The notes beneath the pieces were generated by a model. The model made no database searches. It was given only the letters and a program-made list of their open reading frames with translations, and had not been told where the DNA came from. DNA of 64,000 bases from Struthio camelus (lineage: Eukaryota > Chordata > Aves > Struthioniformes > Struthionidae): contig NC_090964.1 in assembly GCF_040807025.1 (NCBI RefSeq), forward strand, positions 8,952,214 through 9,016,213, in the 5' to 3' direction. A program made the translations under genes and the position numbers. How positions within the stretch are numbered: position 1 is the first letter of the stretch; each line of letters starts with the position of its first letter. Shown one piece after another: positions 9,576-48,818 of this stretch.

Positions 9576-12213
9576 GCGTCTCACCCCTGCGAGCCCCCTC
9601 GGTGCCGGCGGCGGCCTGGCGGGCGCCGGCGCGACCCGGCCCACCGCCCCCGCTCCGCGGGGAGGGAGGCGGCCGCACTGCCCCACGCGCGCCCCGGTGC
9701 CTGGGGTCCGCTCCCCTGCCCCTGCTTTCGGCTGCGCGGAGAACTGGGTCAGCAAGGTATCCATGGAGATGCCGGCGCCGCGCGGGCACAGCCCGGCGCC
9801 CCTCGCTCCCCGGAAACCTTTCCAGATTAACCAGCTTGTCCCCCTCCTTCCGCAGCCGGGGATGGGACTGGGGGGCTGAGCCTCCGCGGCGGGGAAGAGC
9901 GGGGCCGCGGGGGGCGCGCGCCGGGTGCTGCCGGCTCCTCGCGCACCTGCACCGGGCAGCCCTCCGTGGCGGTAAGATGCCTCTTTCCCGTCTTGCTCCT
10001 TTTCCCGGGAGGTGCGTGCGCGGGGAGGGCCGGCAGCGCTCTGCCCGCGGCGGCGGAGCTCGCCCGGGCGAGCCTGCATCCGAATGCAACAGGGAATCCG
10101 TTATTTTGCTGGCAATCGTGCTTTTTTTTTGCATGGAGCGCGGCTGCTCCGGCACAGGAGTGTGTGTGCGTGTGCGTGTGCGTGCGTTAACCAGCACAGC
10201 AGCGGGGGGATGCTACAGCCATGACATCTCCCTCCCGTTTGACTCCCCCATCCCGCGTTATTCCCTGCATCCCAGCCCGCCCGGCAAACGGGGCTCGTTT
10301 CCTGGAGAACTTCTCCGGCGGCGGCTCGGCGCTGGCGGTGGTTGTTGCAGCCTCCCGCGAGCGCGGTGCGTGTCAGCGGGAAGCAGCTGGCCGGGCTGCG
10401 GCCGGGGGCTCCGCTCCCGCCTCTCCTCCCCAGCCTGGCAGTTTGGGGATCTGTTTCCATGGCGGAGGAGGAAGGAGCGTGCGTGTCATTTCATCGCCGG
10501 CGGAGCCTCGCGGTCGCCTGCTCTATGAATCCTGGTGTTTTGCAATGTACGGAATAAACGCAGAGGGTGGATGAAGGGAGAACCGGCTGCCGGTCCCTGA
10601 GTTGCCCACCCGCTGCTGGCTGAAAGCGAGCAAACGGGCGAAAGCATCCGCGGCTGCATATCGTGGGCCAGGGCCGCTCCCGTCGCATCGCGGCCGGTTC
10701 GGCAGGCTGGTGGCGGTCGGGTCCGCGGCAGGCTCGGCCCGGCGCCGCCTGAGCCATCGCCTCCCGGGCCCCCGGCTCGCGGTGCCGCTCTCCGCAGGAG
10801 CCATAAGCAGGTTGGGAAAAGAGAGCAGGGGTAAAATTAAGGGCAGGGTGAAGCAAATCCCTCCTCTGGGCGCAGGAGCGTGCAGCCCCCTTCCTTTGTC
10901 GTGGATTATCCTTTCGTGTGTCGCATTGGAAATGATCCTATTAGCGCTGTGTTACCATGATCTAATTTGCTTTCACCAGAGCTCAGTGCTCTTGGTGGCG
11001 GACGAAGCGCCGAGTGGGGAGAAACAGCAGCAGGATCCGCTCGTGTTTTCCTCGCTTTATCCACGCCAAGGCGGCTTAGACACTGCGCGGCACTTCTGGC
11101 CCGTAGGTGTGCGTGAAACCGCGGGCGATGCGGCGGCAGCCTGCAGAGCCCGTCGCGCGTGCCAGGACTCGGCCCCGGCGCCAGCGAGCGCTGTGCTGCC
11201 GGGTCCCTCGAGCAGGTGACCCCCGAGCCGCGGCCCTTCGTGCTGCCCAGGGTGTCCTCAGCACGGGTTGTCCTGCGTCAGCTGGACGCTATGTCCAGCT
11301 GTAGCCCGCGCGCACGGGGCCATGCACTTATTTAAGCACGGTCTAATGTCAGTTTTAGGGATGGGGGAACTGAGGCACAGCGCAGGGAAGCGGCACGCCG
11401 CAGCGGCCGCGTCAGCCTTGCTCGCCGCAGCGAGCTGCCGTGACCTCCTCGGAGAAATCTCACCGCTTACGAGCGGCCCCACAAGTTTGGCCTCTGGAGG
11501 GTATCCGGAGAGCGGCAGGCGACAGAGCAAAGTATCTGCTCATCCACAGGGTTTCGTGTGGCTTAGCACGGGCAACGCAAACCTCACATGTCCGACCCGG
11601 AGATGCCTGTTGTCCCGCGAGGGCATGGAGGCAACGGAGGGATGCTCAGTGCCATCGCGCCCCGTTTTCCCCATTCCCGGCCGTAACTTATCCTGCGCGT
11701 TTGCGGCTGTGTCTCTTGAAAGAGAAATGTTTTCCCAGGCGCTGCCTCCGTCCACTGTGATAAAGTGGCTTCGCTTGGCGCGGAGTTAATAATTCACCTT
11801 TCCCTGGAAGACGGATGCTCCCGTCCCGCTGGAGGTTAAATATTCATGGGGAAGGGAACGCCGCCGCCGCACGCGCCGGGCCGAGCGGGAGGCCTGGTCC
11901 TCCCGGCTCCCCGGGAAGGGGCGCCGCGGGCCAGGGCCGCGCGGCCCCCGGGGACCTTGGGGCTGTTACCTGGCGCGTCCCTGGGCTCATTAATGCCGGT
12001 TCCAGCGGTCGCCCCCTTTGAGAAGGGGTTGCGCGCGGGGCCTGCAGGCAGCTGCTCTGCGGGGAGGGACCGCGACAGCTTCTCCTGCCGCCCGCGGGTG
12101 GGAAGGTTGGTCCCGCCACCCTGCGCCGCCTTCCGCTCCGGGGAGCCGTCCAGCCCCGCAGGGACCGGCGCTCGGCCGGCCGGGCTCGACGCGTCCCCTC
12201 CTTGCCCCCGCAG
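9576..12213. other. RIMS3 5' region between minisatellite and ATG exon
   Basis: CpG-rich, with a short TG/CG alternating run (10158-10188) and poly-T at 10121-10129. Apart from the candidate 5' exon ending at 9972, no exon is recognised. Confidence 0.5.
9880..9972 (+). promoter_or_regulatory. Second candidate non-coding first exon of RIMS3
   Basis: A GC-rich stretch just 3' of the 67-bp minisatellite ends with a strong donor, GCG|GTAAGA, at 9973. It lies 2.2 kb before the RIMS3 ATG exon and could serve as an alternative 5' exon. Only composition and the donor support it. Confidence 0.3.
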
Positions 12214-25031: not shown

Positions 25032-25157
25032 TTATTTCCACATCTGAGTGCTGAGGGACTGATTGCTTCCCTGGGCACTTCCTCCGCCCATTGACTGTCC
25101 ATATCCCATCATGCCATTAGCTCCATAGAAGTTCATCCCAGCCATCTGCTGGGTCAT
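25032..25157 (-). CDS. SMAP2: SMAP2 last coding exon
   Basis: Acceptor ccttctcag before 25157; TAA stop at 25034-25032. It encodes [20 protein letters not shown] followed by [21 protein letters not shown]. The 3' UTR follows at lower coordinates. Confidence 0.95.
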
Positions 25158-28100
25158 CTGAGAAGGGGAGAGGAGACAAATCAAGCTATGTCAGGGACAC
25201 CATGCCAGCCCAAAGCGCTCAGCTTGAATAAAATAACTCTTGCTGCCTAACATATCACAGACACAAGTTCAGCTGTAGCACAACAACCTAAGCCTAAACA
25301 GATGCAGATAGATACTACCTGAATATAGTATCCTCATGTCAATCCAGTTCAGTGTCATGTATAAAAGCCATAGTTCCACGTGCAGTTGCTTTCTGGCTAC
25401 AGGCTTGCTACCCCCAACAGCCAGTTGGGGGCTATTTCTCAAATGTTTAAATGAAGTGAGAGTTAAGCTTTTGCTTTCTAATTTATCCCTCACCGCACTA
25501 GGATTGTTATCTAGAAGTCAAGGCCTTCCCTGATTTAGGTCTGCCTGTCAAGCAGGAGTGTTCTATTTCAGTTGATGCTACACTGATTTTTGTTCAGACA
25601 CACTGAGGCCTCTGAACAAGTTATTGCTTTTTGATCCCTCAGTTTGCCTGCAGAATCAGTGGGCCTCACCCAGCCCCAAGAGAGAGTCTATAAAAAGCAC
25701 TAAAACCTCTACGCAACCTCTAGGCCAGATTTAACCACATGTGCTTCCCCTACACTCCTTCCACCTTTGGCCCAGCAGAAGACAACACCTCACCTGAGCG
25801 ATGTTCCACTGAAGCTGCTGTGCTGGCTGCACACTGTAGACTGGCTGTGGAACCGCTGCCATGCCAGCTACGTAGCCAGCCTGCTGTGCAGCCATCATCC
25901 CGTTGGGCACACCGATGACAGCTGCCTGCATGTTACCCACATATCCAGCTGGTAGGGCCATGGGAGTCACCATCCCTGCAGCTCCAGGCTGGGTCATCAT
26001 TCCCATTGATGGTGCCATCATGCCTCCCACCATGCTGCTGGAAGGGGCTACTCCTGGAAAGCTAGTATATGCTGCTGCAGGATATGCCATCTGAGCTGGG
26101 GCCATGAACATCGCTCCTAAAAAAAAAAAGGCAGAGAAGCAATGAAGAGAAGAATTGCTGCAGTCATCATTAGGGGCTGAAATGCCACCCTTCAGTTCAG
26201 GGACTGTCACAGTGCTCACTTGGCCCTGACATTCCAACTAGAGCTGCCCATCATGCTCCTCAGTCTTCAAGAAGGATGACCTATATTCCTACATCTTTGC
26301 TTGTCAGCTATCAATTCAGTGCTCTCAGAACAAACCACCCACTCTGAGTTAGTGTACTGTCCTTCAAGTGCTCTTCTGGGATCTGTTACCTTGTGCAGGC
26401 AGCTGAGGCGTCTGAGAGCCATACAAGGATAGGATAGAGTCTTTAGAGAGCTGCTTCTTCCCTACTTCCTCCCCTTTGCCTCCTGGCTCAGGGAAGAGAT
26501 TCAAGTTTTCAGGAACAGAACCAGCACTTCCAGATGTTGGCATAGAACCGGTGACCTGAGACAGACAGCACAAGAGCAACAGGAGTATTCAGCGCTAAGG
26601 GAAGACATGCAGTGCTTCTTCCCCTTCTTGTCCAGGCGCTGAGCTAAGCTTTGGCAAGCACTGATATTGCCTACTTACCTTCCTGGAGTCAGAGTTTGAT
26701 CCCACTGAGGCAAAGAGATCAAGATCCTTCTCTAAGCTGCTAGGCCTGCCATTTGGAACAGTGGTTGTCACAGGAGCATCTGGGAGACAAAGCCACGATG
26801 AATGTTTCACCCAAATGCCCTCAGGCTGAGGGACAGCCTCTTTGCTAACTTAGCAATCTGTACATATGCCACTCAACCCAGTGACCTGACCTGCAACCTA
26901 CTTTAGCCATTGCAATGGGTACAATAAGATTGTAAAGGCTCTTACCAAGTCCTAGCAAGTCCATTACTGGTTCAGTAGATTTAGGAGAATTTTTTCTAGA
27001 CTGCTGCATTTCTTCTTTCTTTTGAGGCTAGGGCAATAAAAAACACCAGAAGTCTTGTTCAAATTTTGGTTTTACTCTGATATTTAGAGGCTATAAGGGT
27101 TTATGTTCTCCTTAAGATCTGGGTGGGTTTTGGGTTTTTCTTCTTCCTTTCTTCAGTGGACATGAGTGCTTTAAAAGTGAACAGTTTCAGAGCAAGTACT
27201 ACAAAATTGTTTTACTGTCCATTAGGTTGGAACCCTCTATCAAACTCACGCTAATCTAAACTAGGAAAAGCTGATCTGAACTAAGAAAAAGTAACAGCTC
27301 AGGTTGTCTAACAGGGAAGAGTTGGATTTCAACCAGCTCTGAACTGCATGGCAGGCTGCTTAGTAAGTAACTGCAAGTCTGCTTAGTATCTGGTTGAGTA
27401 GTAGAAAATGAGCTACTACGACTTGTGTGATTTAATGCATCACTGCTACAACTGAGGCCAGAGAAAACACTCCCATATCAAGCTGGATTACCTCCCATTC
27501 TGCTTGAGAGAAGTCTTTACAACTCATCTGTGACCATGCCTTTCAGTCTTACCATTTTCACTTTCTCAAAGATGATCGGTTCCAGTTTTCTTTCTGATAC
27601 CGGCTCATTACTCCTCTTCCATTTGTCATCCTTTTCTTTCTGTAAAGGAGAAGGACACAAGGGTCAAAGCTCACAAGGGAGAGTTTAAACAGTACTACAT
27701 GATGTTGTCACTATATGAAAAGCCTCACAATCATTTGTTCATGTTTCAAACTCCTAGCCAACTACCTGTCCTGCAGCACAGATACAGCTAAAGACATGTA
27801 TTTGAAGTTAGTGCTGCTCTGAGCAGGGAGTTGGACAAGATGACCTTCAGAAGTCCCTTCCAACTTGATTATTCTGTCTACAAAACAACTGATTCTTCAG
27901 CCTTGGAGAATACATTAATCACTAATCAAGGATACATTTAAAACCACTTTCGTAGAGTTGCAGCTTATTCATGAGACAGATCTAAACTTATAAATTAACA
28001 TACATTTAAGCTTCTGCAGAAATAAGTTATTAGAAACTAACCCTAAATGCATTGATGTCAATACTTCGGTCCATGTATTTCTTCTTTTCATATTTATCAC

Positions 28101-31100
28101 GAATGAAGCCCTCCACAGCTCTGCAAGAAGCTTGTTAAAGACAAATGATTCAAGAATGGAAGACATACCCATGTGTCAAATATTACAAGATACAGGTTGT
28201 AACAGAACTAATGACCATCCGATAAGCTCTTCCAGCACTCACTTTGAGGTAACAATGTTGGATCAAACTATTTTAGCTACTCAATTTTTGCTTCTTTAGG
28301 GCTAACTCCAAGCATGATGGTGCTATAAAAAGTTATGTTAAATCAGTGTTTAGTTTCTACTATGCTCTTCCTTTTGATTTATATTTACTTTAACTATCAC
28401 TTAAGAGCATACATTTCAGTGGCACAGTCACATACAGTAAGAGGCGGTAGGCAGAGAAATGGATCTTATGCATGCAAGAGCACCTCAGTCAGCAGCTTAA
28501 TAAGGCACAGCAAACATGACAAAGGTGCTCCTGCATTTCTTTAGGTTCATATCACTATAACCCTGTTGCACGGGGCATCTAGAAACCCTTTTGTAAATAA
28601 GGGAAGAAATTACAGCTTTGTTTTTCAAAAGTGCTGAACCTTCCTAGCTCTCATCACTGAGAATTTTAAATGCTCAGGACTTGGAAGTCAACTCTATTTG
28701 CCACAGAACTGACGACACTATTGCACGAGATGCGCTAAGTTGCGACAATCAAGCTCCAGTTCTCCACCCTTACAGCTTGGAAGCAATCCTTTCAGCTCTC
28801 TTCCACTCAGTTCAGTAAAGTAAGCAGTCTGAAGAAATGCTCAGAGGGTGCACAGCTAGGAGCTTATTTCATAGCTGATGCACAGGCACGTGAAGATAAG
28901 CCTCCTATGCAAGGAGGGCAGCCACTAAGCAACAAGTGGAAAAGCTTCCATATTCCCCCAGTAGCAAAGGAAGAAAGGATGCTGATCTGTTTGAGGTCGC
29001 CTGAAGTTCTCTGGCAGGTAGGCTTCATAAAGACGATTTGCTTTTCCATTTCCCATCTCCTGCATGCACTGCAATTCAAAAGAATTAAGCCATTTGTTTC
29101 ACAAACATTAGAGCTTTTATACATACTAACATGCAAGGCTGTCAACTAAGAGTCTGTTAACTAGGGGTGGGTATACTTTTGAAGTTTGTCCTGTAGACAG
29201 AAAGACATTCTTCTGGCTTCTGGTACAAGTCTACTCCTTAATTTAAGGGGGTAGCTTCAGACCTGAACAGCCCAAAGACCTCACATCCCTTATTAGACAA
29301 GAAGTATTTTCATTTTTGTAGTATTTTCACATGTTGAGAACATCTGGCACACTGCAGCTTTTATATAAAGCAGTTTTTCTTCATACTCAGGAGATTCACT
29401 GTTTTACTTGGAAGACCAAGTGCAATCTGCAGATTAACATTTTCTAGGGGCGTTCTGTTTAGAATTTTTCTTCTAGTGAGTTCACCTTCAACAACTACTA
29501 GAGCTCCTTAGCATTTATATGCCTATTAGGTAAACTCTGGGCCTCTTACTTCATTGGCCATGGTATGTCAACCCCTTGTTTGATTACAAAGTTAGAGAAG
29601 TTTGGAAACTCTTCTTAAAGATGATCTTGTTTGGCTTTGCCAAGCAAGTTAGAATTCTGATTAGTTCAAGTCTCTTCAGCATTAGTATAGCTGCTTATAG
29701 AAACATGAAATTTGATTAGCTGGGAATCCCTGATGCAGCTGCTGTGATCTCCCTGTACAATTAGCCAACCCTGAGCATTACAGCACAGTATTTATGCTAA
29801 GTCAAGATAAGTACTGCATTAGCAACTGAAAAAAATCACTCAGGAAGTCCGAGATTCCTCTCCTGGAAACCTCAAGGAGAAGAGGTAGGCAGCAGCTCAA
29901 GCAATGGCAGCCTTTTATAGAAACGCGCCAAAAGTTTGTCTTTACCTACTGAGGTAGGTAGAGATGGTAATTATGACTTTCTTCCCAATACAGCTCTACC
30001 AGAGCAACACTATTCATTTTCCACCTGCATTACCTGTATCTGTTCTTGCGTCCACTGGTCAAGATTGACTGATTTTACCCTGGATATATGAACTCCTAGA
30101 TTCCTGTGGATCCCAGCACAACGAATACAGATGAATACACCAATATTCCAGGATGCCCATCGTGGCCCTGCAAAAGAGACACACAAGGGTTTCATACCAG
30201 CAAGTCAATGCGCAGTTACCTTGAACAACTGAGAAACTGTACCAAGTGAACTGGAACTGAAAACTTTACATTTTCATCCAGATTAGAACTTGGAATTAGA
30301 CATTAGCAAGATGTTTTTACAGGTACTCTCACAGCGATTATACTAGAAATAGTATTTTTATTCCCTCCTTCTTCCATTTTGAGCTCCACATAAGACACAA
30401 ACACAACTCTAAGGGGAGAAGGGAAGAAAATCATCATTTAGAACACCCAGGACTCTGCAAAATCCCAGTTTCCTCTTGCTTAAAGTGACAGTCATGTCAC
30501 TACAGGTCTATTTCTGCTTTAAGAAATGGACATGTTCAATCTTCCACTGCAGTAGGGCTATACAAGAATCAGCTTCAGAATATTCACTACTGCTCAAGGA
30601 CAAGCAGCATAAAACACTCACATTTGACATGTGGACAGCATCACCAAGTCCTCTCTTTTAATCTCAAGCAGGAAGAAAGCTAAGTAAGGAGAGTAGGACC
30701 AACACTTAAAATCCAGTAGTCTAATCACCAAAAATAGTCAGGGAACAGAGCTCCAGGTTGTGAACCTGACATAAGACTGAAACAGTTCACTCTTCAGTTT
30801 CCACAGCTCTAATCAAATCCACAATTTGCATGCAGCTTTCAAACAGGCAGGAGAGCTCCAAGGTGTAGAAGAAGGGAGATCATGCCAGGAAAAAAACACA
30901 AGGGAAAGATTAACAAGCTTAGGTTTTTTTTTTTTTTTAAACTCACTGCAAACAGTCCAGAAACTCATTACCAGTGGATTGCAGGGCTCCACAAATGTCC
31001 ACAGGCACCCAGCAGCACTCCCACTGCTCACAGCCCCCCACCCTGGCCAGGGCCATCCCAAGCTCTGGCCATCAACACCCTCTGTACTGCTCAAGGAAGA

Positions 31101-34100
31101 GCAGCTTTGAAAGTAGTCCTCTGCAGTGTAACACAAGTCTGTTTTAAAACTACATAATCTGGCTAGAGCTCCCAGCCAGATGCATATTTAACATAGTCGG
31201 CTTCCATCATAGTTTGGATTTTGCTGTTCACGTTTACCTAGGCTGAACTCTGTTAACCAGCCAAACACAGTATTAAGCAGAGCTAAACCATACCCTGAAT
31301 AAGAATTGATAGATTTCAGCTCTGGAGCAAAACAGCTTGCTTTAATTAGAACAGATATGACAGCCCTTCACTGGAGAGCTAAAAAGCACTCCATCTCCTT
31401 CCCTCTGTCCAAGAGGCTTGAGGTACACTTTTTAGGAATTGCTTCAAGTCAAGCTTCCTTGCTGAAGCACCTTATTGGCACTACTGTTTTCAATAGCGTA
31501 ACTTGAAGTAGAATAACCATACTAGCCTTTTTATAAGGGTTACTACCATTATTGCAGATGAAGGCAAAGAGTTGTTATTCTATCTTATCTTGCAATAGCT
31601 AAAATAGCAAGCCTCAAAGCAAACGAGATTGCAGTGGGAGGAGGAGGAGAGGGAACATGGAATTCCAAAGAGCTAAAACCACCCCACTGTATTTGAATTT
31701 CCTAGACACACTAGAAGCTTTTAAAAATAGTTAACTCCTGTTTACCAGGAGAGTTCAGAGTATCCTGAGGAATTCAGTGCTAATAAGGCAGCAGCTCATG
31801 GCCACAGTAAGTTTGGGTGCATTAGTAATCAGGAAGTTTTATTTTCCTCCAGTCTCTTTAGATAGCTGATTGACATTCAGGGTCAGCAATAGTTCCCTAA
31901 GTCCCCACACACCCTAGCATGTACTGCCTGTTCCCTTCCAGAGGGAAGGTATGCAACCTCTAACTTAGCCCCAGAAGTACCTATTGCAACTAAAGTAAAA
32001 ATGCTATTTATAGTTAAAAAAGCTCTAAGCTTTCTAGCCTGTCCTGCCTCTGCTTTCCCCCCTGAAAGATGTGGCCCTTAAAAAGAGTATTTTTAAGGAA
32101 GCTGTTCAAAGTCACATCCCAGCTTATGAACAGCTCTTGGGGGAAGGCCTTAACTGAAGCAGACTTTTGACGATATCTTAGTTCCTATATTACACCTACC
32201 AAGCCCTAAGAGGTAATGACTCAAAGCAGAGGCCCACATCTTGGCAGCACCTAAGTATTCCAGCAACAAAGTAAGCATGCAAATACATGGTTTGTTCCAA
32301 GCATTATGCCTGTAGCACATCTAGGCTAGAGCCAGGAATTCTGATCCTCCCTTTCTTTTACTTCAGGGCGTTCTCTCCCAAATATACCTGCCGCCTCATT
32401 CTTAACAGTTCCTCGAGGCTATGACTTAAGAGACCACTGGTAAGATTAAGCATGCGATTCAAGGTTAGATTTTAAACTCTAGGCTATATTTAGCCTTCAT
32501 AGGACTAAAAGGATTAATAGCCAGCTAGATACTACATCAGGGTCATAGCAATCAGCTCACTAGTTTGTCACATGTGCTAAAGCCACTGCAGCCTCCTACC
32601 TTACTAGGCCAGATAGCAAAGTGACTCATTAGCAGTACAGGCTGTTTTGCTTGCCTTGCTTTAGCACTGCTTCATTTACGATGCAGGATCTGAAACAGTA
32701 AGGGCTGGGTATCAAAGCAACAGCTGACCATTGCTGTGACTTAGGGACCCAAGCTCTGGAAGACCCTAGTACTGAAGCAGCTTCCATTATGCTAATGAAC
32801 ATTTTCAAAATTAACCCCCTAGGCTTTCAAAAATTCTTCTAGCAGCTAGTATTCAGTTTAGTGGTACGAGCAAATATTGCATAACAAAGCACAGTTCTCT
32901 TCACTAATGCTTATTTCAGCCAGGGTTAGGGGTACTTACAGTGCCAAGAAGTGTCACAAGAAAGACTTCAGATCAGAAAGCAGGCTAGAAGAAAGATCAG
33001 AAGTTCGGGGGTAAAGGTTTGATTTTGTCTGGAGCCAAAAGGAAGGTACTCCTCCCAGAAGTTCAGTAGTCTGCTCACACCAATGCTGTAGTGATTAGGC
33101 AGGCATGCAAGCAGGACACTTAGACTAAAGTGCCACATAAAATCTGCAAGTCTACAGCCAACTCTGGTTCTGCAAGGCACACGAGTTTGAAATCTAGATC
33201 TGAGCACCTCATTCTTTTGGGTGGAAGAAGGTAGTTTCTTCAGTCCAGAGTCCTGTTTTCTTTCTCTCAGGACTGAGAGAAATCTTCAAAGAGGAACAAG
33301 ATACAGTGACAACCCTTGAGAGTGAAAGGAGACCAAGATCAACAGCCACGCTACAGAGAACCGTCTGCCTAGACAGCAATGAGGGTTGACACAGCAAGAC
33401 TCAAAGCAGGAGAAAGAGCAGTTTGAACAGGCAGCGACTGGCAGAACAAGCAGTAGCCCATCCGTAGCTATGTGAGGCAAAAGTAGTTTGTCCAACTGAA
33501 GCAGACACCACATAACTTCGTGCCGATTAAAATTATCATTTGACTCCTCGGACAGGGAGGAATATTACAAAAGTAGTACTTTTTTACTAGAAGGGCTGTC
33601 TCGAGCAAGACAGCCTGTTCAGAGTAGGCTGCCAGTGAGAAAGCAATGGGCCAAAGCCCAGATGTCCAGGTTAAGCTGGGTGAGTTGCAACAAGCAGAGG
33701 CACCAGCCCAAGCACATGCACGCACCTACTAGACTTTCAACTTCGGTAGTCTCCAGAGCCCCTGACCATTATGCCAAAACATTTTACTATTTCATGTCTT
33801 AAAATACACTCAGTTTTGTGGGCAATAGGGGACAACTTTTGAGGCAAATGTAAGCAAGTCTTGTACTTCCTTCTTTTGAGACCATGATTAAGGAACTCGC
33901 ACCAGAAACCATACGAGGAAGTGTCCCAGGGAAGATCTAGCTCAGAGAACTCTGTACAGTAGTTTCCGCACACACAGTTTCACATGCTATTTGCAAGGTA
34001 ACTGACTTGCAAAAAGCCCCAGGTGAAAGTATTTACAGAAATGAGTTCAGTTATACATTACAGGCTTTAACTTCCCAAAAGCTAAACTGAGTTTCAAGCT

Positions 34101-37100
34101 GTACAGAAGTTAGTGACCAAACATTGACAGAAGAAATAGGATTTTGTGTTTTCTTTTATTTAAAAGTTGAAGACAATTTTCAGAAAGAAAGCCTGCTCCC
34201 ATATCAGTAAGTCCTTTAAAGAACCCCACTGTAGCATGTATCAGCATAGCTAATAAGTTACTGCTGAGCACTATCTTTGCCTGCAGCCTCTGCACACACC
34301 CCAGCATTTCCCCATTAATTACTTGGGAGAGGGCATAGGGTGCCAGAGGGAGCATTTTACCCTCTGGGTTCAGTGACTCATGCAATCCTTGGCCCTTCTC
34401 TGCAAAGGGTTTTAGAACAAGGCTAACAAATGTTTGGCTTGTTAAACTACCAGAGAAACATGAAAGAAAATGGTCCTTGCATGAATACTCTCACTAATGT
34501 TATAAATAGTTCCCTTTAGGTTGGCATCATCACTACCACCAGATGGCTTTAGAACTTAACACCTAAATGAAAACTCACTCCCCATATGCAAACTTCTAAG
34601 TTTGCTGCAATCACAGCCAGCATTAGGCATGCAATCCTGATGCTGCAGCCACTTTTTCAACATTACAACTAATTTTAACACCCATGGGAAGCAATTACCT
34701 GGCACATACTGGAACTGGGCATAGCTCATTCAATTCCCACTAAACATATCTCACATCCCTCTACATTGCCTCATACATGCACAAATCCTTTCCAGAGGAT
34801 GTTCAGAGGTAGACAAGAGATTAAAGAAAACAATTTTCTTTAAGAACAGGATGTTAACCAAAACAGATTTAAGAGCCCAGTTATACACTCCATTCTGGCA
34901 CCATGTTAAGGCTAGATTAGAGCACCTTTATGATATATTCCTAGCCTGGGGATGGTTACAGGAAGATGCCCAGCTTAAAAGGCCTCTATTGCCCTGTCAG
35001 CTGTGTCATCGAAGCAAGTCACACTGAATACCTGCCACTGTATTTGTAAGTGGGGATGCACCACTCTCGAGTGACTGGAAAGCTACATGCAAGAAATGCA
35101 TCTACTCAGTTAACTGTTCATGAAACAGTTTCACAGCCTGTTTTATAACTCAGTGTGTCAAAATAAACATTGCATACCAAGCTGGTCATACTAGCCTAAG
35201 TCAGCAGCCAAGTCTGAATCACTAATGCCTACAAGAACTGCCTGAATGATCTGCCCTTATTAAAAAGGCTCCCAGTGCCATTTAAAACCCAAGTACAGCC
35301 TGGCTAGTACACTTCACACCACATTTTAGTCACTTGCAGAAAGTTAACACCCCTGAGCATTTTAAAAGCAAGAAAACCCAAGGGGATTCACTCCTTCCCC
35401 TTTTTTTCAGGCATTGCCTTTTGGCTCAAGGTCCTCATGGATGTTTCTTCTATAATAACCCTCCAGAAGGCATTTAAAAATAAAACAGAAACTGGCTGCA
35501 AAGCCACTGCTCTTTTGAGAGGGAGGATGGGAAAAAAATAGATGCTTTCATAGGCAGGAAGGAGCACGCTTTGCTATTCAATGCCTAATGAAATAATCTG
35601 AGGGCAAGCAATTGTTTGGCTTGCAGGCTCCCTGCCTGCAAGTACTCCAGCAAAGGCCCAGCTGTAATGGGGAAATATGCCTGCTCGGCCCATTGATCAC
35701 AGTGAACACTACTACATGTGTTGAACTAAGGCACTGTACAACCATTTCCCTCAGAGCGTTCACAGGGGAAGTGGATGTGGGAAATTCTGCATAGTGGGAC
35801 AATCCCAGCAAGATGACATTCATGTCTTTTCATACAAGCCATCACCAGTATTTGGGAATTTCTCATCAAGTCAAAGGACTTTTTTTGCAGAGCCAAATGA
35901 GGAAATAACCAAGTACCCAAGGGCTTCCTTTGACTTGCTGTTCCCTTATTCTGGAAAGGGATTGCTTAGTGACTTACTGAAATTCATTCCATTCATAGAA
36001 AAGCTATGACAAAAAGCATGTTACAAAACAGCTTCCTCCACTCTTTACTGTAGACTGTCTGTTCCAAAGTACTCTGAACACCCTGCTGTGGGAAAACAAG
36101 GTAAGGTCTACTAGTGCACTAAAAGGACAGTTAACTTCTGAAAGATCTCTAGATCGTGCTATTTAGTTATTAACTTAAGTTGATCAATAGCTGAGCACAC
36201 ATCACTGAGCAGTTTGTGCTCTCATTTACAAGGTTTATGAAGCACTAGCTAACATTGCCATCTGCCACCATACTAGCATCAAATAGACAAAGCTACTCCT
36301 GTGTCTTCAGGAAGCCATTAGAACCAAGTCAAACAGGGAGGCTAAAGCCAAAAACCTTGGTTAGCAAGGGATTTTGACAGTGATATATGCCAAGTTATTT
36401 AGTAGTACAAAAACTCAACTTTAAGGCCACTCCTTAAAAAAGGATTTTTTCAGTAAGAGCCTGCTGCAGTAACTATAGGCCTTGTCCACTCTTAGCAAGA
36501 ATGAGAGGAGTCAGACACACCTACTGGGTTTCAGAATTTTGCTATGGATGTTTTGGAGCTCTGCCTTAAAATTCTTCTTGGCTACGTTATCAGCAGCCAT
36601 ACTCCCTCCTGCCCCAAACAACGTTTGCTATAGGCATCCTACCGGCCAAGAGCAAGTTGAATGGTGCTGGCTCCATTTTCTTTTGGGAAGAACCTATAAG
36701 AAGGTTAAGTATACTCAGTTATTTCAAAAGGTTATCAGAAAAACCTAACATTTGAGTGCCTGGTGGTCTTTGGGGCAGTCACGCTGCAGAATTTGACCTA
36801 CCATTCCCAGAATAACAGATTAAACTGTTGAGTAGTGTGTAAGCTTGCAGAAGAAGCCTTCAAAGCAAGTCTTTGCATTGTCACCATCGTGTCCTTCGAG
36901 GTGCTGCAAGGATGCAAAGGCAGACAGAGCAACTTGGAGGAAATGAGGATGCTGTGAACAGCAGGGTGGGTCCTTCCTGCGGTTTAAGGAAGTGATGTCT
37001 ATTACTCTGGTAAACAAACTGAAAGTGACAGTTTCAAACAGATGCTACAGAAATCTGTGCAAGGCTACTGGTTAACATTACCAACATTGATGGCAACACA

Positions 37101-40100
37101 GCCTAAACAGCAACAAAAAAAATCATCAAGTTTCATGACTCCACATATTTTCAGAGGTTAGCACAGGAGAGTGTCCCCATGTATAGATGGGGAATATCCA
37201 AGGTAAGAATTTTATGTTCCAGAGACTAGATAATAGACATCCAATCACTAGGTTTTGGCCAAAGCTGCACGCAAGTCAACGCTAGAAGCTGCTACTATAA
37301 AGGCAACAACTTATCTCAAGTAGGCCTGAAATTTCATGACATGTAAAAAGCTTATGTGGTTGTGTTATGAGTTTGTCAGCAAGTATCAAGAGCGGACAGC
37401 ACATGTCAGGGCTATTAGCGTTTATGACAAAGGCATAAAGTCTGAAGTATCTGGTCTACAACAGTTGAAATCGAGAGACAAACTGATGGAGTTTTATTCT
37501 CAGAGTGCTCGAGTATACCAAACAGAGTTATAAGCAGCATTTCATCCTTCGCCGCTAACTGTGTACCAAAACTTCCAAGTCAGTCATGCGTAGCCTCAAA
37601 CCATACAAAATACAAGATCAATGCTAACTCAATTGAACCACGGCTGCCCAGACTATTAGAGGCCTGCAGCACTGCAGAGAAGTGCTGAAACACAGCTGTA
37701 CTGTGCAGTACCATTAAAGCATATAATAATTCCTTTAAAGCTTCCTTGGGGAAAGAGTCATGTGTTATACAGCAAGTCTGGTATCAGACACTGCTACGCA
37801 GTTCTGGCTGACAGTACAGGAAGGGAGGTTCTTCTGCCCTCAGAATCGGCATGTGATCAGACACACATGTAAGCAAGAACTATGGCATGATAATCTTTAG
37901 AAACTTCTACTTACATAGCCAATCTTCTGCGGAATAAGCCTGACTGAGAAAGACATACTCACGAGTAGACGCTAAAACACCATCCCAGTGTCCATATGCA
38001 AGCATAAACAGACCAGCAGGCTGAAAGTTCACAGTATCAGTGTTATTTTAGACCATCAGAATTCAACTTGGAATTTCTACACCAGCAAACGTGTTACAAG
38101 ATGTCTATGCAAGCACCCTTAATCCATCAGTGGTTTTTTTTATTATTTATTCTTCATCTTCCAACATCACCCGATTTGTTGAGATACGTAGCAGTAACTA
38201 ACTCCCTGAAGTCGCTCCTAACATATGAAGGAGTCTCACCTTCTGGGCCACATTTTGCCCGGCTGAGAATCTCTTAAATATGTAGAGCCGGCAATGAAGT
38301 ACTTAAGCCATTTCAGGTACCAAAAAAGACTTGACATTAATAATGATAGGGCATAATCTAGCCAACAAGGAAAGGCATGTGCTTTCAAAAATAGAGGCAA
38401 GTAGTTTAACAAGTCACTCTGAAAGGCAGAATTTAGCACAGGTAAATCCAGCTTCGCAACCAGAAAAGAAACTTTGTTCCAAGAGAGATTCTGTTAGAAG
38501 TTCAATCTTTTTCCGTCCTAGATTTCCTGGGACACATGAAGTAATCACTATTCTGGATCAACCTGAAGGAGACCAAGTTATTCTTGATTCTCTAGCTGGT
38601 TCTGATAACCTACTTGTATTTTGAAAGATGAATTACCTTTAAACTGCAGAGGCATCTTCTAAAGAGGCTAGCACAAGAGTTTTTGAATGCGTTTTGATGC
38701 CTTATGTAATTTATCTGGTAGTTCCTATAGGAACAAGTTTCTATTAAGGCTGGAACTATGGCTTGAGAATTGCGTGGCATTTTTGGACCCCTAATTTATA
38801 CCCTTTGCTCTCAGCCAGGTTGGTGCACTATGGCTCTTCATTTCACAGATGGGGACTTGTCTATGTAGCTGGTACAGACAAACAGCAATATTAAAATGCA
38901 GACTGCCTGCCAAGATGCCCTCTACTCAGAGGATTATCTTTGCTATCTATTTCTGTCAGATGTAGAGACATGCATCTGTGTACGTGACTCAGAGCTCTTC
39001 CAGACTCAGAGCTCTGCATATCTTAAAGGAAATCTTCCAATAACTCCTGTTATGAAGTGCAAACTATTTCCAGAATAAGTCCCCATTTGAAAGGCTGATT
39101 TTTTTCCCTAGCTTTTCAGCTTGAACGGGTGCCATTACAACAACCTATCCACTTTCAGCAGGTGGATGTAGGGCTGGGCTCCCAGTCAGACAGAACTGTC
39201 TTCCCTCCCAGCCAGTCTAATGCAGTTGGAAAAAATTACTGAAGTTCCTCAGATGTGGATCACTGTAAAGGATAAAGAGAGTCTACTGGACAAAGTTCAT
39301 TTGTGTGAGCATTTATATCCATTTGAAATTAATACTGCTTTACTGCACATGACTATTTCCCTTTCAGTCCTGGCTTTGGAATAGCAGAACAGTGCAAAAG
39401 GAAGACATAAGGTAGCAGTCATTAAGATAACTACAGAATATTGTTACAGCAGCTAAGAATTAAAATGAGTATACATATATGTAGGCATCCTCTCTGGCAA
39501 GCTTTCATTACACAAAATTGAACTTTCTCCATTGCAAGATTTTACTGTGGCAAACTGAGAAACTTTAGTCCTACAACTGATTTTTGAAGCTTACCACAGG
39601 CAAACAGCGTACATCATTGCATCCACTGCTCAGTTTTCCATAATGCTCATTTCTTCATCACATGCAGTTGTAGTAGGCAGTTGCGTAAATTGCCCTACAC
39701 TGCTTTTACCAAAAAGGAAATTCAACTGTGATTGAATATTCTTCTATCTCAACTTCATCACCAGGGAAGAGTTTTGTTGAATATTACCAGCATGTTTTAT
39801 ACTAGTACTAGTTAGGCTAGACTAAACCAACTCTAAAATGGAGTAGTTACTCCATTTTATTGGAGCCCATTCTTCTTTCACTGTGTTTACTCTCCCTCCA
39901 GGCTTCTTATCCTGCTCTTCCAGCTCTAGCCCAGCAGCTTCCTGTCCCATCCAATAATTAATCACCTCCTGACAGCTATTCAGAGTTCTAACCCTCTTTC
40001 AGAAATGATGACTTGAAGAATTAGATCAGGATTTATTTTGTGTTAAACAGTTTTCCGTACAACCACTACAGTTATAAAAAGGGGGCTGATTTCAGCACGG

Positions 40101-43100
40101 GACCCACAGTTCTCACAAGACACAAGGGAAGAAGGGAAAGAGTCAGACAAACCAGGAGGAGCACAGGGCAACCTTAAACTGATGCACAGATGGAGTACCC
40201 AGTGACGACTGCTCCCTGTGGAGGGACCTGCAGTTCCAGCGTCAACGAAACTTGATCCAAGGAGCCTGTTGGATAATAGGACTGGAAGAGCAGAGGGGAA
40301 GAGTTTGGGAGAAGGAGAGAACCAAATAGAACAGCTGTACGTTATACAAGTTCAGCACAGAGTTTTAGAGTCAGAAATGCAGAGAAGAATCCAGTTAATT
40401 TAACCGTTACTCAACACAAGACATTTACCATTCATTGGATGCCTTCTAAACAGTTAGCTCAAGTCCAGCTTACATAGATAACCCATCCCTCCTGCATCAA
40501 CTTCAGTTTCAGACTCCAGATTCATTTTAAAGTCCAGTACCACTTTACTTTGACAGAGATGCAGTACTGCTTGGCAGTCATGCCATCTCACCTTATACAC
40601 ACACACAAACCACACACAAACCACAACAGCAACACAACTGCCCGCTGAAGGCCCTCTGCCACAAGAAAAATCCACAGATAGAAAAGATCTAGTTCTCACT
40701 TATTCTTCAAAAGCTTATTTCTTTTAAGGCATTTTGCTCAAATGATTCACATAGCAAGGGCTTTCAAGTCAAAAGGATTATGATAATTCATCACTCCAGC
40801 TTTTAGTGAAGAAATCCACCCTACCACCTTACCCATGCTGGGGAGTCCTGAGGGTAGAGATGTGTCATTGCGGGTGGTACAGTGCTGCTGGGACTCCATG
40901 CTGGATCATTGCTTTTGATCATTAATATTTCTATTGAGATAACATTCAAAGCAAGATGTAAAAAAAAAAAATCCCTGGGACAGGTAACCTCTGAGAGCAT
41001 TTGCAAGGTGGTATTTGCTATATGTTTGTGCCCAACATTGCTACAAGGCTGTCACTGAGATCCCAAGTCACAACTTTGTTCAAGTAATAAGGACCCTCTT
41101 TTATGCCCTGAACTTTTCACTCTTAAGCATAACTGCCAGAAAGCAGTCTAAGCATGCTCTAGTTCAGCACAAGTTTTAGGATCTGTCCACTTGCTTCCGA
41201 TTCACTCAGTTTATGCACAGTTATTTTTAACAGAAACTTTGCAATGCAAAGAGGAAGAAGCAGGCTACAGCTCTCACCCAACTTCCTCCAAAACAAGACT
41301 AACCACCATGCAGTGTTTGCTGCTGCAGAAGCAAAACCCACCTTAAGCATTCTTTCCCAGTTTCCTTGTTCTCCCTCCACCAAGCAACTTAAATCTGGGG
41401 CATTAATAGTTGTCTAGCGAACCCCAGAAAGACAACAGCAGGCTCATACTTTGCAGGTCTCCTGTCAGGCTCACCCTTTGTACTCTAAAGGGAAAAAACA
41501 TTAAACAAAGCACCTGAAGCCATCATCAGCTCCAACAGCTTCTCAGAAGAAAAGCCTTGGAGACAGCTACGTGCCCTCTGAAAGTTATTTGAATCCAAGA
41601 TAGAAGGAGAAGATGGCTCCAAGAAACAGATATTAAAAGGGCAACAAACTTAAACTCTTAAGTAAGTTGCTCAGATACAACCATTTTGTACTACTTTTGT
41701 TAGTGACTTAACTGGATCCTGCTCACAATAGTTTTTGCACTACAAGGCCTGCCAGACTCTTAAGAGGCCAGTGAGAGGACATGCCAATCCACAGTAACAG
41801 GTGCACACCACTGTCCCTAATGGGGACATACCAACACAACTGGCACTCTCCTAGCAAGTATTTTGGAGAAACTATTTTGTCTCCTCTTAAAGGAGGGGGA
41901 AAAACTGGATTAGGAATCACTTCTACACACTGCCTGACGGGAAGCAAGTGATAATGAGAAGACAAAACAAGAACACCCACACTTTAAATAAGGCCAAAGA
42001 GACTGAGGAGGTTAGACACCCAATAGTTTATCAACATAGCATGGCCAGCAAGATAACATTCATTACAGTCATCCCAGAGAGCGAGGCCTAAACAGCAGCC
42101 AGCATCAGAGAAGCTATGTTCCTGACAATTACGCTTTCACTCTAATGCTGAGAACTTCTGTAGAGGAACGAAATCAGATGGGTGCACGCTAGGACTGTAG
42201 CTGACGCCAACAGGTACTGTAATCTCATTTAGTTCTGTATATAGAAGTGAAAAAATACAGTAATGAAACTCAGCAAGTAGTTAGGTCATTGGGAACAGGC
42301 ATAATGGAAGTGTGGGTGGCATCTGAACAGTCTCTGCTTATGTGTCATGCTAGCTTTGAAAAAGCTCACATCAAGCTGCAAAAAAACTATAAAATTCAGT
42401 AACTTAAGCATAAAAAGGAATGGTCAAAAGCCAGCGTTCCATTGCAAGTGTGTCCTGATAGGTGCTGGAAGGGTAAGAACCCAGCACCTCATCCTTCAGC
42501 TCTGCTGCAACTCATGCAAAAATGCTTATGAGGTTGAACCCAAGCTGGCTGACAAAGGAAGGAGCTGGTGAGAGAAGTGCCACCACCAACCCTCTCCATA
42601 TCATTTACTAACAGTGACCAGATTTCAGCACCGACCTTGGTAGATTACTATTTACAAAACTCATCTGCAACACCAACTGCTACAGTCAAACAAGAATATG
42701 AAAACTCGTATTCTAGTTTTGAGCATGAAGCAACAGTTTGCAACTGAAAAGTTAAACTCTTGCAAGAAATGCATGAAGATGCCTTTAAACATCCTTCACA
42801 GACCTCAGCTAGCACAGCCAGATTTGCAGCTGGCTAAAAAAGAGAAAATGGTCAACTCTACAGAAAAGCAGCCAATTCTTTCAGCTGGTGCTGAAAGTGT
42901 TGAGAGAAGCCCTCTGGAGTTGGCAAATACCAGTGGCCTCTCATTAGTGGAGACTCAGTTTTAGCTATTAAGAAGCTGTAGATCCAATAAAATGTGCTCT
43001 TCATGCTGCACAAGTACACCTGGGGCTCATTTCCATACACAGAGCAGAAATCTGCAGTTACTTCCAGCAGCAAAAAGAACTAATATTAGGCCTTTCTTGC

Positions 43101-45217
43101 CATTGCTGTAACTCAGTTTCAATGATCAAATGGGAGAACATCACATCAAGCCATGTTACAGAAATGCAATTAAATGATAACTTGATTGGCACCAATTCCA
43201 GATTAACACTACCATCAGATACCCAGTAAAGAGTAACCAGGTACACTTCTTCCGTGGCTAAAAACTCAATATATTCTGCTCAAGAATTAAAGTTCACAGC
43301 TCCATGTATCACTTATTAGTATAATACATAGCTATTTTGCCAAATAACTCAGTGCAATAGAAGACTACTCTTGCTATCTGGCAGTGACTGACCTAAGCCC
43401 AGACACAAGCAGCTTTCAGCTTTGGTGGCAAAGCTTAAATGCAGACTCTAACTTCCTACACATTAATAATTGGAATAGTACAAGTCCAGAATGTACTATA
43501 TACAGGATAGGATACAAAAATCCTAGCAAAAAAATCCTAGGAATTGTGGTCTGGATTTGTTGCTATACTGTGTATATTAACACCTCATGTCACAAAAGAG
43601 AAAATGTTGGGGTTTTTTGCCCTTGGCTCTTGCATTAGGAGACAAAAGATAAGAGATCTGCAAGTGAGAGGACATTCTGCTCTCTACTCTCAATACCATG
43701 GTCAGCCAAAGTCAGTTGTGAAATGCTTCTCTGAACTGTGCCATCTCCAAAATATGAAAGGTTGTTACTATGAAATTACTGTCTTGTTTTTTTTTTTTTG
43801 CAGGTTATTGTATAGAAACCAGTAGGCATCAGAACTACTTTTTTTAGGCATGGTTGAAGGTTAATTCTTAATGATATAGTTTTTAATGATATTCAGCAGT
43901 GCGCTCTGCAGCTTGTAGAGGTCATACTGAGATGGCTAAAGTCATATACTTACAAATAGACATAGAAAGACTCTTCCCCTCCAAGTTCAGTTATTCTGGC
44001 TTTTGGGAAACAAGCCTTGAGCGCCGATCTCCAAATGCTTAAAAGAGCTCATTAAAATAGGATTCCCAAGAGGCATGGGATAACCTTAACCCTTTACTAC
44101 AGAAAAGGGAAGCACATCACAGTAGCAAGCTACAGGAAGGTATCTATACATCAGGAGACAAATTGGGGGCATTTAATTATTTCATCGTCTTGGAGTCAGA
44201 CATTTAAACCTGCACTCCTCTTTGGCCACGTTCTTTCCCTTTCCTTTTTACAAGGGGCAAGAATCACAACATGCCTTGCACCAACTCAATGGCAAGTGGA
44301 AAAGGAAGCACAGGAGGGGGGAAAAGAACAAGCAGGAATTCCTTCAGTCGTACTCAGCTCCTAAACGACAACTGCTTCCTCTTGTTCACACGCTGCCCCT
44401 TTCCAACGCTGCTGCTCTCAGACCCTCTGAGCATGACCCCCGGCCGATACCACAGCTCTCAGGGAGCAGGTATCACTCCCCAGCTGGAGCATCCTACAAA
44501 ATTATGCAACCCCAGCTCGTCAAGTTCCTCTTCGCGCAAGGCTTCGCTAGGAGACCAGCTCACGCACATGATTCAAGTGTTCTCCCAGCGACATTTCCGA
44601 ACCAACCACAGCGTAGCCAGGGAGTCGATGACATTTCGGGGTACCTCTCACCCCACGCACCCGGCAATGCGGGCAGCAATGGGGCCGGGGCAGCTCCACC
44701 GACAGCAGCACCCCACACATGCAGCAGGGCCAGCTCCGAGGGAAGTTTGGTTGGAAACTGGGTATTTTTTTTAAAAAAAACCCACCCACCAGCTGCCTCC
44801 TCGAGAGAGCTGGAAGCCACCTCCTGTGGTATGGGGGGGAGGGGGGAGGAGAAGTGACAGGACGGCGAGGTGGGGGGACAAGAGCGGCCACCCCGGGCCG
44901 CGAGGGGCCCCCAGACGGGCCGGGCCGGGCCCGGCGGTGCCGGAGCGCTGCTGCTGCCGTCACCGGGACCCCCCCAACCCGCCGCGGGGCCGTTAGCGGG
45001 CGGCAGGGCAACGCGTCCCGCTGCCGGCGAGGGGGGCAGAGGGGAACCGGGGCCTCCTACCACCGCCGCTCCCCCCGGCCCGGCCCGGCCAGGCCCCGGC
45101 CCGGCCCCCGCTACCTTTGGCCTGGCAGTCGGCGCAGAACTTGTTCTCCTCCTCCACCAGCAGGCTGGCCAGCACCGCCTGGTAGCGGTCCACGTCGCGG
45201 ACCGACTTGCCCGTCAT
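25032..45217 (-). CDS. SMAP2: SMAP2, stromal membrane-associated protein 2, ArfGAP (complete, 10 coding exons)
   Basis: Arf GTPase-activating protein that acts with clathrin at the trans-Golgi network and early endosomes. Coding exons in transcript order: 45217-45115, 30167-30034, 29068-28983, 28120-28042, 27639-27553, 27027-26946, 26779-26679, 26555-26390, 26116-25794, 25157-25032. They join to 1,287 bp (428 aa plus TAA); human SMAP2 is about 429 aa. The ArfGAP domain is residues about 10-130 with zinc-finger Cys28, Cys31, Cys48, Cys51 (CX2CX16CX2C) and the arginine finger at Arg56. LLGLD at 187-191 is the clathrin box. The C-terminal third is Met/Ala/Gly/Gln-rich (exons 9-10), the region that binds the clathrin assembly protein CALM in mammals. 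SMAP1 is excluded by the C-terminal half. Intron 3 has GC-AG ends with U12-type signals. Intron 1 is 14.9 kb. The promoter is GC-rich and TATA-less. Confidence 0.96.
25794..26116 (-). CDS. SMAP2: SMAP2 coding exon 9, Met/Gly/Ala-rich region
   Basis: Acceptor tttttttttttag before 26116; donor GTGAGG at 25793. It encodes [20 protein letters not shown] and onward to [12 protein letters not shown], the low-complexity C-terminal region typical of SMAP proteins. Confidence 0.95.
26390..26555 (-). CDS. SMAP2: SMAP2 coding exon 8
   Basis: Acceptor ctgtctcag before 26555; donor GTAACA at 26389. It encodes [20 protein letters not shown] and onward to [13 protein letters not shown]. Confidence 0.95.
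26679..26779 (-). CDS. SMAP2: SMAP2 coding exon 7
   Basis: Acceptor gtctcccag before 26779; donor GTAAGT at 26678. It encodes [20 protein letters not shown] followed by [14 protein letters not shown]. Confidence 0.95.
26946..27027 (-). CDS. SMAP2: SMAP2 coding exon 6, clathrin box
   Basis: Acceptor tgccctag before 27027; donor GTAAGA at 26945. It encodes [20 protein letters not shown] followed by VMDLLGL. The split Asp completes the LLGLD clathrin-binding box. Confidence 0.95.
27553..27639 (-). CDS. SMAP2: SMAP2 coding exon 5
   Basis: Acceptor ctttacag before 27639; donor GTAAGA at 27552. It encodes [20 protein letters not shown] followed by PIIFEKVKM. Confidence 0.95.
27813..27880 (+). mobile_element. 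CR1-type LINE 3'-end remnant
   Basis: Sequence around gcagggagttggacaagatg, then ccttc...gtcccttccaac and ttgattattctgtc, matches the 3' tail of CR1 retrotransposons, which are common in birds and other sauropsids. It is short, diverged and lies in SMAP2 intron 4. The usual terminal octamer repeat is decayed. Confidence 0.75.
28042..28120 (-). CDS. SMAP2: SMAP2 coding exon 4
   Basis: Acceptor cttcttgcag before 28120; donor GTTAGT at 28041. It encodes [20 protein letters not shown] followed by DINAFR, the end of the ArfGAP domain. Confidence 0.95.
28121..28982 (-). other. SMAP2 intron 3, probable U12-type with GC-AG ends
   Basis: The 862-bp intron starts GCATCCTTT, which is the U12 donor consensus RTATCCTTT with C replacing T at position 2. 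A branch-like GTCTTTAAC lies at 28142-28134; its second A is 14 nt from the acceptor AG, and no long pyrimidine tract intervenes. Minor-spliceosome recognition is inferred from these motifs. Confidence 0.7.
28983..29068 (-). CDS. SMAP2: SMAP2 coding exon 3, followed by a GC donor
   Basis: Acceptor gaattgcag before 29068. It encodes [20 protein letters not shown] followed by NFRRPQTDQ. No GT is available at the expected boundary. Frame and homology place the exon end at 28983, so the intron begins GCATCCTTT. Confidence 0.9.
30034..30167 (-). CDS. SMAP2: SMAP2 coding exon 2, ArfGAP zinc finger
   Basis: Acceptor ttttgcag before 30167; donor GTAATG at 30033. It encodes [20 protein letters not shown] and onward to DQWTQEQIQ, with the second Cys pair and the arginine finger (HRNLG). 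Confidence 0.96.
30168..45114 (-). other. SMAP2 intron 1 (14.9 kb)
   Basis: AT-rich and mostly unique. Poly-T or poly-A runs occur at about 30926-30939, 40960-40970 and 43787-43799. A 26-bp near-palindrome lies at 39834-39859, and a short tandem gactcagagctct duplication at about 38986-39016. No exon, RNA gene or processed pseudogene is recognised. Sequence becomes abruptly GC-rich after about 44.4 kb. Confidence 0.75.
39834..39859. repeat. Near-perfect palindrome, 12-bp arms
   Basis: taaaatggagta, spacer gt, then tactccatttta: both arms are exact reverse complements. It is preceded at about 39801-39812 by actagtactagt. It may be a hairpin or a relic of an inverted-repeat element. Confidence 0.9.
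45115..45217 (-). CDS. SMAP2: SMAP2 coding exon 1
   Basis: ATG at 45217-45215; donor GTAGCG begins at 45114. It encodes [20 protein letters not shown] and onward to CADCQAK, with the first zinc-binding Cys pair. It lies in the CpG-rich promoter block. Confidence 0.95.
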
Positions 45218-45865: not shown

Positions 45866-46620
45866 GGAGGCGCCCCGTGCTGCTGCTCGCCTCGGCCAGG
45901 CGGTGCCCCAGATCTGTGCCCCCGGAGGAGCCGCGGGCCGTCCCCGCTGCCCGCCCCGGGTCCCTGTCCTGGGAGGCCGTGCGCAGGGGACGGGGCCGTT
46001 TGGGGACCCCGGCGGCGTCCTCCTAACCCCGTTCCTGGGATCCCACAGTGAACTGAACAGGGGAGAAAAAGCCTGAGTCTTTGGACGACGATGCCTATCA
46101 CAGAGCGCAGCCCCCGGCCTGCTCACGCTGAGGTGCGAAGGAGACAACTTAAGGACCCGCGCTAAGTAAAAAGCTGCAATCAAATGAGCAACGGCATCAA
46201 AAGGAGAAAAAAAGATGCCAGTGTGCAGTGATCTACAAGACGCTTGAAATTACATAATGCTTCCAAAAGTGACACTCCTGTCCCAGAAAGGGCCCCGGGC
46301 GCAGGGATATCCGTGGGGTCTGTTTGCATCAGGCACGAAGCAAAAATATCCCAGCGGCTGCATGAATGGGAAGGATCCAAATTTGGATGCTCTAAAAACA
46401 AGCTGCTCTCAGCCTACAGCCTTTTGGTTTCAAAGTGCCAGGTCTCGGGAGGGGGAAGCGCCTCCCTGCCGAATGGGGCGCTCGGGCAGGCCGGCGCTGC
46501 CGGGAGAGGAGCAGCGAGGGCGGCAGGCCCTTCCCCGGCCCAAGCGCAGGTGCAAAGACTGAACACCAGAAGGAAAGAAAAACCAATGTGTTTTTAGACT
46601 TCCTGCCTGCAGCGTTGCTC

Positions 46621-46708
46621 CGTCAGCCCTTGCTGCTGGCTCTGCTGGGACAGTCCCTGCTCTCCGTCAGCCCTCGCTGCTGGCTCTGCTGGGACAGTCC
46701 CTGCCTGG
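46621..46708. repeat. Two-copy 44-bp tandem duplication
   Basis: The segment starting cgtcagccct at 46621 recurs at 46665 with one visible substitution (ttgctg/tcgctg). Confidence 0.9.
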
Positions 46709-48580: not shown

Positions 48581-48737
48581 CCGGGCTGCTCCATATTAAT
48601 GAGCCTGGCCCCTTCCTCCTCCTCCTCCTCCTCGGCAGGCTGCGGGCGCACGCCGGGGCCGGGCAGTCGGGGCTGCCGCACACCTGAGCGCCGCGCCAGC
48701 CGGGCCAGCACCGCCGCCGGCTCGCGCCACCCTCGCC
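48581..48737 (+). promoter_or_regulatory. COL9A2 promoter and 5' UTR
   Basis: A TATA-like atattaat at 48593-48600 is followed by a C/T-rich cctcctcctcc stretch and a GC-rich leader ending in cgccATGG. The transcription start is probably around 48620-48640. Confidence 0.45.
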
Positions 48738-48818
48738 ATGGCCGGCTCGCCGGGCAGCCTCAAGCTCTGCCTCCTCCTCCTCCTCCTCCAGGCCGCCGGG
48801 CTCTGCCTGGCCCAGCTC
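48738..48818 (+). CDS. COL9A2: COL9A2 exon 1, signal peptide
   Basis: ATG at 48738; donor GTAAGT at 48819. It encodes 27 residues, [20 protein letters not shown] then GLCLAQL. Confidence 0.95.

Follow-up and report, generated by a model that had tools for sequence, protein, structure and literature searches.

Intron 3 of SMAP2, a very probable U12-type intron with an apparent GC donor

Intron 3 of SMAP2 is very probably a U12-type intron, as judged from its splice signals and from its counterpart in the paralogue SMAP1. It almost certainly represents an inherited minor intron in which the T at position +2 has changed to C, because the corresponding SMAP1 intron, alike in codon and phase, is of the GT-AG U12 type. 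The termini of SMAP2 intron 3 are GC-AG and not the usual GT-AG or AT-AC; according to PMC3584512, it is the sequences of the 5' splice site and the branch, and not the termini, that make an intron U12-type. That the GC donor is genuine in the species is highly likely, a judgement that depends on a single base in a single assembly. A minor-spliceosome intron had been proposed here in a first-pass annotation of the window (the whole stretch of DNA analysed, 64,000 nucleotides), and this proposal is supported by the donor core, by the branch site and, decisively, by intron 3 of SMAP1.

Results

The gene model of SMAP2 and the parts of it that surround the exon 3-4 junction are the following.

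25032..45217, minus strand: whole SMAP2 coding region, 10 exons with 428 codons open (gene model, contig C23)
28983..29068, minus strand: SMAP2 exon 3, 86 nt, 3' end CAAACAGATCA, phase 2 junction (gene model and protein match to 2iqj and 2crr)
28121..28982, minus strand: SMAP2 intron 3, 862 nt, GC-AG, putatively U12-type, starting with GCATCCTTTCTTCC and ending with GTCTTTAACAAGCTTCTTGCAG
28042..28120, minus strand: SMAP2 exon 4, 79 nt, 5' start AGCTGTGGAGGGC (gene model)

The exons were found via known SMAP2 motifs, and the database comparison covered the exon 3-4 stretch. The peptide encoded by this stretch had its best PDB match in 2iqj (3.6e-29), a record with the title 'Stromal membrane-associated protein 1-like' which we take to be SMAP2, and the next match was 2crr of SMAP1B (1.9e-21). 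The identity of the gene is given by its open reading frame and by an ArfGAP stretch that is nearest to SMAP2 in this PDB comparison of the exon 3-4 peptide. The predicted exon 3-4 junction is set by protein homology on both flanks. The coordinates and the sequence given for intron 3 in the first-pass annotation proved to be correct, as did the statement that no GT is available at the start of the intron, and intron 3 is the only one of the nine SMAP2 introns that lacks it.

Further features were noted in other parts of the window. At 8808-9576, a 67-bp tandem repeat is present in 11.5 copies with 98% matches and has long open frames on both strands; it looks like a young minisatellite. At about 48600-63600 on the plus strand, short Gly-X-Y exon-like pieces and a signal-peptide-like start near 48.6 kb point to a putative collagen gene, probably COL9A2 in view of the gene neighbourhood. 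Upstream of SMAP2 exon 1, on the strand of SMAP2, a 44-bp unit occurs twice with 97% identity (46618-46704).

A DNA search of the same genome with the exon 3 to exon 4 stretch of SMAP2, intron 3 included, revealed, besides SMAP2 itself, two places on contig C3 that correspond to exons 3 and 4 of SMAP1 (locus L004), and no retrocopy of spliced SMAP2 was detected in this search. The numbers of these two contigs, C3 for SMAP1 and C23 for SMAP2, coincide with those of the chicken chromosomes that carry the two genes (3 and 23), and the genome is probably that of a bird. In SMAP1, the exon 3 end CAAACAGATCA is followed directly by the donor GTATCCTTT. Intron 3 of SMAP1 has a length of 4741 nt, begins with GTATCCTTTTT, contains the branch site TTTTCCTTAAAC and ends with TTTTCCTTAAACTAGCTATTTCCAG, after which exon 4 starts with AGCTGTGG. 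It belongs to the standard GT-AG U12 introns and shares codon and phase with SMAP2 intron 3. The two introns are alike in codon, in phase 2, in the exon flanks, in the ATCCTTT core and in the possession of a U12 branch site, whereas the SMAP1 intron differs in having a GT donor and a cleaner branch site and in being much longer than the SMAP2 intron (4741 versus 862 nt). The first bases of both introns agree at 8/9 positions, with only +2 being different, and the last bases agree at 9/13, whereas just inside the ends 8/31 and 11/36 bases are alike, which is about what would be expected by chance; therefore the splice signals were kept while the remainder drifted. The earlier suggestion that a usual GT had become GC is supported by this comparison, as the paralogue keeps GT and differs in the first nine bases only at +2. 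The simplest history would be that of one U12 intron predating the split of SMAP1 and SMAP2, after which the T at +2 was replaced by C in SMAP2. The reverse course, in which an ancestral GC became GT in SMAP1, is possible as well but would require that the rare state be the older one.

A single base decides on the GC donor, and the GT found at this place in SMAP1, together with the low frequency of GC donors, 0.97% of chicken U12 introns as tabulated in PMC7367187, would fit a U12-type intron in a species that normally has GT, the C at 28981 being due to a mistake in the assembly or to an allele of low frequency. The assembly is, however, a large-scale one, with 1.45 Gb in 262 contigs, and the surrounding coding sequence is without signs of error over 428 open codons, which makes an error or a rare allele an unlikely explanation. 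In the genome search, which gave one 100% match, no second haplotype copy was found for comparison.

The scan for alternative junctions took in donors lying between a point 20 nt into exon 3 and a point 400 nt into the intron, and acceptors no more than about 40 nt away from where exon 4 starts. In the scanned range, 21 GT, GC or AT combinations keep the frame without a stop, and the peptide QAVEGF is restored by a single one of them, GC/AG at 28982/28120. The end of exon 3 at 28983, which had been deduced earlier from frame and protein continuity, is thereby borne out. The GT donors among the alternatives had U1 matches of at most 4/9 and did not restore QAVEGF. An AT at 28986, combined with an AC acceptor, had a U1 match of 6/9, which is above that of the proposed site, but its use would alter the conserved protein stretch. 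Upstream GC donors at 29041 and 29000 (three combinations) showed U1 matches of 5/9, and the protein was again altered; the GC at 29000 reads CAG/GCGACCT, and six residues would be removed by its use. That the real junction lies elsewhere, or that exon 3 or exon 4 is skipped or alternatively spliced, with the GC site at 28982 remaining unused, might be argued from the fact that the case is built on sequence and that 20 of the 21 frame-keeping combinations differ from the proposed one, some of them being better against U1. Yet none of these 20 yields QAVEGF, the best one with GT has no more than the 4/9 mentioned, and residues would be gained or lost inside the conserved ArfGAP stretch, so that a junction at another place is very unlikely.

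The donor of intron 3 is located as follows.

28974..28982, minus strand: 5' splice site GCATCCTTT, candidate U12 donor whose +2 base is C (28981)

On recount, 8/9 bases of this donor match RTATCCTTT, in agreement with the number reported before. The U12 donor core ATCCTTT, at +3 to +9, is matched at 7/7 positions in intron 3 and at 1-3/7 in the other eight SMAP2 introns. For comparison with the major spliceosome, the known U1 consensus CAGGTAAGT and the U1 5' end were used for scoring, and a match of 2/9 was obtained for intron 3, as compared to 5-8/9 for the eight other SMAP2 introns, all of which have GT. Calculated U1 duplex energies amounted to -0.9 kcal/mol for intron 3 of SMAP2, -2.3 kcal/mol for intron 3 of SMAP1 and -5.8 to -11.6 kcal/mol for the eight other SMAP2 introns. 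The bases -1A, +4T, +5C and +6C of the intron 3 donor all oppose U1, and the poor pairing with U1 that had been predicted for +4 to +6 is thus confirmed by the mismatches and by the duplex energy. GC donors usually require strong U1 pairing elsewhere. Removal by the major spliceosome as a U2-type GC-AG intron, a possibility already dismissed in the first-pass annotation, is extremely improbable, for although the GC-AG share in chicken is given as greater in U2 introns (2.2%) than in U12 introns (0.97%; PMC7367187), the U1 match of 2/9, the duplex energy of -0.9 kcal/mol and the U12 nature of the paralogous SMAP1 intron all oppose it.

Pairing with components of the minor spliceosome was also evaluated. 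The U11 match in the genome (locus L005) has the 5' end AAAAAGGGC, which pairs in register over +4 to +9 at 6/6 positions with intron 3 of SMAP2 and with intron 3 of SMAP1, and at 0-3/6 with the eight other introns. Similarly, duplexes with the U6atac piece reached -7.7 kcal/mol for SMAP2 intron 3 and -6.3 kcal/mol for SMAP1 intron 3, and -2.4 kcal/mol or weaker for the other eight. The free U11 duplex energy does not help to decide: the value for the U2-type intron 6 (-8.1 kcal/mol) is below that of intron 3 (-6.1 kcal/mol) because intron 6 pairs out of register. The exon base at -1 of the intron 3 donor is an A, and the same A is found in SMAP1; phase 2 GT-AG U12 introns are described as tending to avoid A before the donor (PMC7367187).

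A near-perfect U12 donor word, GTATCCTTG, is also present in intron 4 of SMAP2, at 27935-27927 (minus strand), about 107 nt past exon 4. It belongs to the one-mismatch class expected by chance and would be the first-choice candidate for a cryptic minor donor.

At the other end of intron 3, the following elements were recognized.

28134..28144, minus strand: U12-like branch site TTGTCTTTAAC, 9/11 to TTTTCCTTAAC, with the branch A at 28135 and then 14 nt to the intron end
28121..28122, minus strand: 3' splice site AG in TTGCAG/AGCTG, with a second AG immediately in the exon

U12 branch sites have the consensus TTCCTTAAC and are placed about 10-16 nt from the acceptor. The branch-like GTCTTTAAC agrees with this consensus at 7/9 positions and hence is 2/9 off, as scored against the general consensus, and both this match and the distance of 14 nt between its A and the AG are as had been noted earlier. 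The distance is slightly past the optimal branch-to-acceptor distance of 11-13 nt given in PMC6717393. A pyrimidine fraction of 0.65 was determined before the acceptor in intron 3, and the same value was obtained for SMAP1 intron 3 and for the U2-type intron 2. The absence of a strong pyrimidine tract, which the first-pass annotation had taken as an indication of the U12 class, therefore is weak support, since pyrimidine content does not discriminate here, a U2-type intron having an equal value. The acceptor is a tandem AG/AG (28119-28122, minus strand), and a two-base frameshift would result if the GC donor were joined to the second AG.

Chance expectations were calculated for the individual signals. 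The word GCATCCTTT was seen once in the window, where 0.87 occurrences were expected, and one-mismatch RTATCCTTT words were seen 24 times versus 18.1 expected, a mild excess that was reached in 9 of 100 shuffles. The 20,186 nt of the SMAP2 gene strand contain NNATCCTTT 5 times, and on this strand a branch match that is equal or better, at 7-21 nt before an AG, was found for 6 of 1534 AGs. If treated as independent, the donor at the exon end and the branch match have a joint chance of about 1e-6. The donor word alone is worthless, and the weight of the proposed assignment lies in the protein-defined exon end, the branch site and the paralogue taken together.

Discussion

The GC-AG subtype of U12 introns is rare but established, and SMAP2 adds one more case; calling it a rare subtype, as had been done in the first-pass annotation, was correct, though such introns were already on record. 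GC-AG introns account for 0.97% of the U12 introns of chicken and 0.61% of those of human (PMC7367187, Table 2), and their share across 13 vertebrates ranges from 0 in zebrafish to 4.3% in fugu; the text of PMC7367187 counts 'almost no' GC-AG introns in the U12 class. Evidence for one GC-AG U12 intron in Acanthamoeba is reported in PMC2846911. An intron of human LZTR1 resembles SMAP2 intron 3 in being minor and in having a GC donor, and is counted as a G-type minor intron in PMC8280824. In a P120 minigene, this GC-AG minor site lost the competition with GT-AG sites, and loss of CENATAC had an effect on it (PMC8280824). The LZTR1 intron differs in that it belongs to another gene and has been studied with RNA data and a minigene (PMC8280824), whereas the SMAP2 case is known from sequence only. 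The Drosophila SF3A1 (CG16941) intron is likewise U12-type and GC-AG, and differs in being from another gene and from an insect, the GC-AG intron being listed in PMC2831892 as absent from human SF3A1. Changes at +2 are also described for the GG-AG introns of SLC12A4 and SLC25A30 and for the GA-AG intron of zebrafish actr10, the orthologues in other vertebrates having the usual termini (PMC2831892); in contrast to SMAP2, however, +2 is G or A in these cases and not C. No link of SMAP2 with a minor or U12-type intron or with the minor spliceosome was found in the papers searched, but genome-wide supplementary tables could well include this intron.

Taken together, it is likely that SMAP2 intron 3 is an ancient U12 intron, at a position common to SMAP1, that acquired a C in place of the T at +2 in the lineage of this genome and would still be removed by the minor spliceosome. 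This reading draws on the sequence, the reading frame, the homologous position and the capacity of U11 and U6atac to pair, and from it we infer pairing of U12, actual splicing, its lower efficiency and the fate of the retained form. Positions +4 to +9 can base-pair with U11, the same core can do so with U6atac, and for U12 a duplex with the branch region TCTTTAAC is expected. At least one match each to U11 (contig C23), U6atac (contig C20) and U12 (contig C1) was found over the Rfam cut-off in the genome, and the Rfam search of the window gave 0 matches at the gathering score.

The first three intron bases are described as being read by the U11-48K protein, with no U11 pairing there (PMC3584512). 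Because U11-48K reads +1 to +3, a C at +2 would spare the pairing with U11 and U6atac, and the weakening should be confined to the step in which the protein reads the donor. A compensating change in U11, which is unpaired at +2, is not expected. Some cost of the C is nevertheless likely, because a mutational study is cited in PMC2831892 as having found U at +2 to be highly conserved. The residues Q-A-V-E-G-F would then be joined correctly but more slowly than from a GT donor, and more retained-intron transcript would be formed, for which the following stop is predicted.

28925..28927, minus strand: in-frame TAG on retention of intron 3, 18 codons past the junction codon (frame 0 translation)

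Translation of such a transcript would end 18 codons further on, its degradation is probable, and a lower SMAP2 output would be expected from the weaker splicing. It is quite unlikely that selection has maintained the GC in this lineage, in the sense that the weakened donor would tie SMAP2 output to the activity of the minor spliceosome and perhaps to CENATAC; if GC were selected, it would act as a built-in switch in SMAP2 which is absent from SMAP1 with its GT donor.

The GC donor exemplifies a kind of site whose position automatic gene finders would probably get wrong. SMAP1 and SMAP2 constitute a natural pair in one genome, with a minor intron at the same position that starts with GT in one gene and apparently with GC in the other. 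If real, this pair would permit a direct measurement, within the cell, of the effect of position +2, where U11 does not pair.
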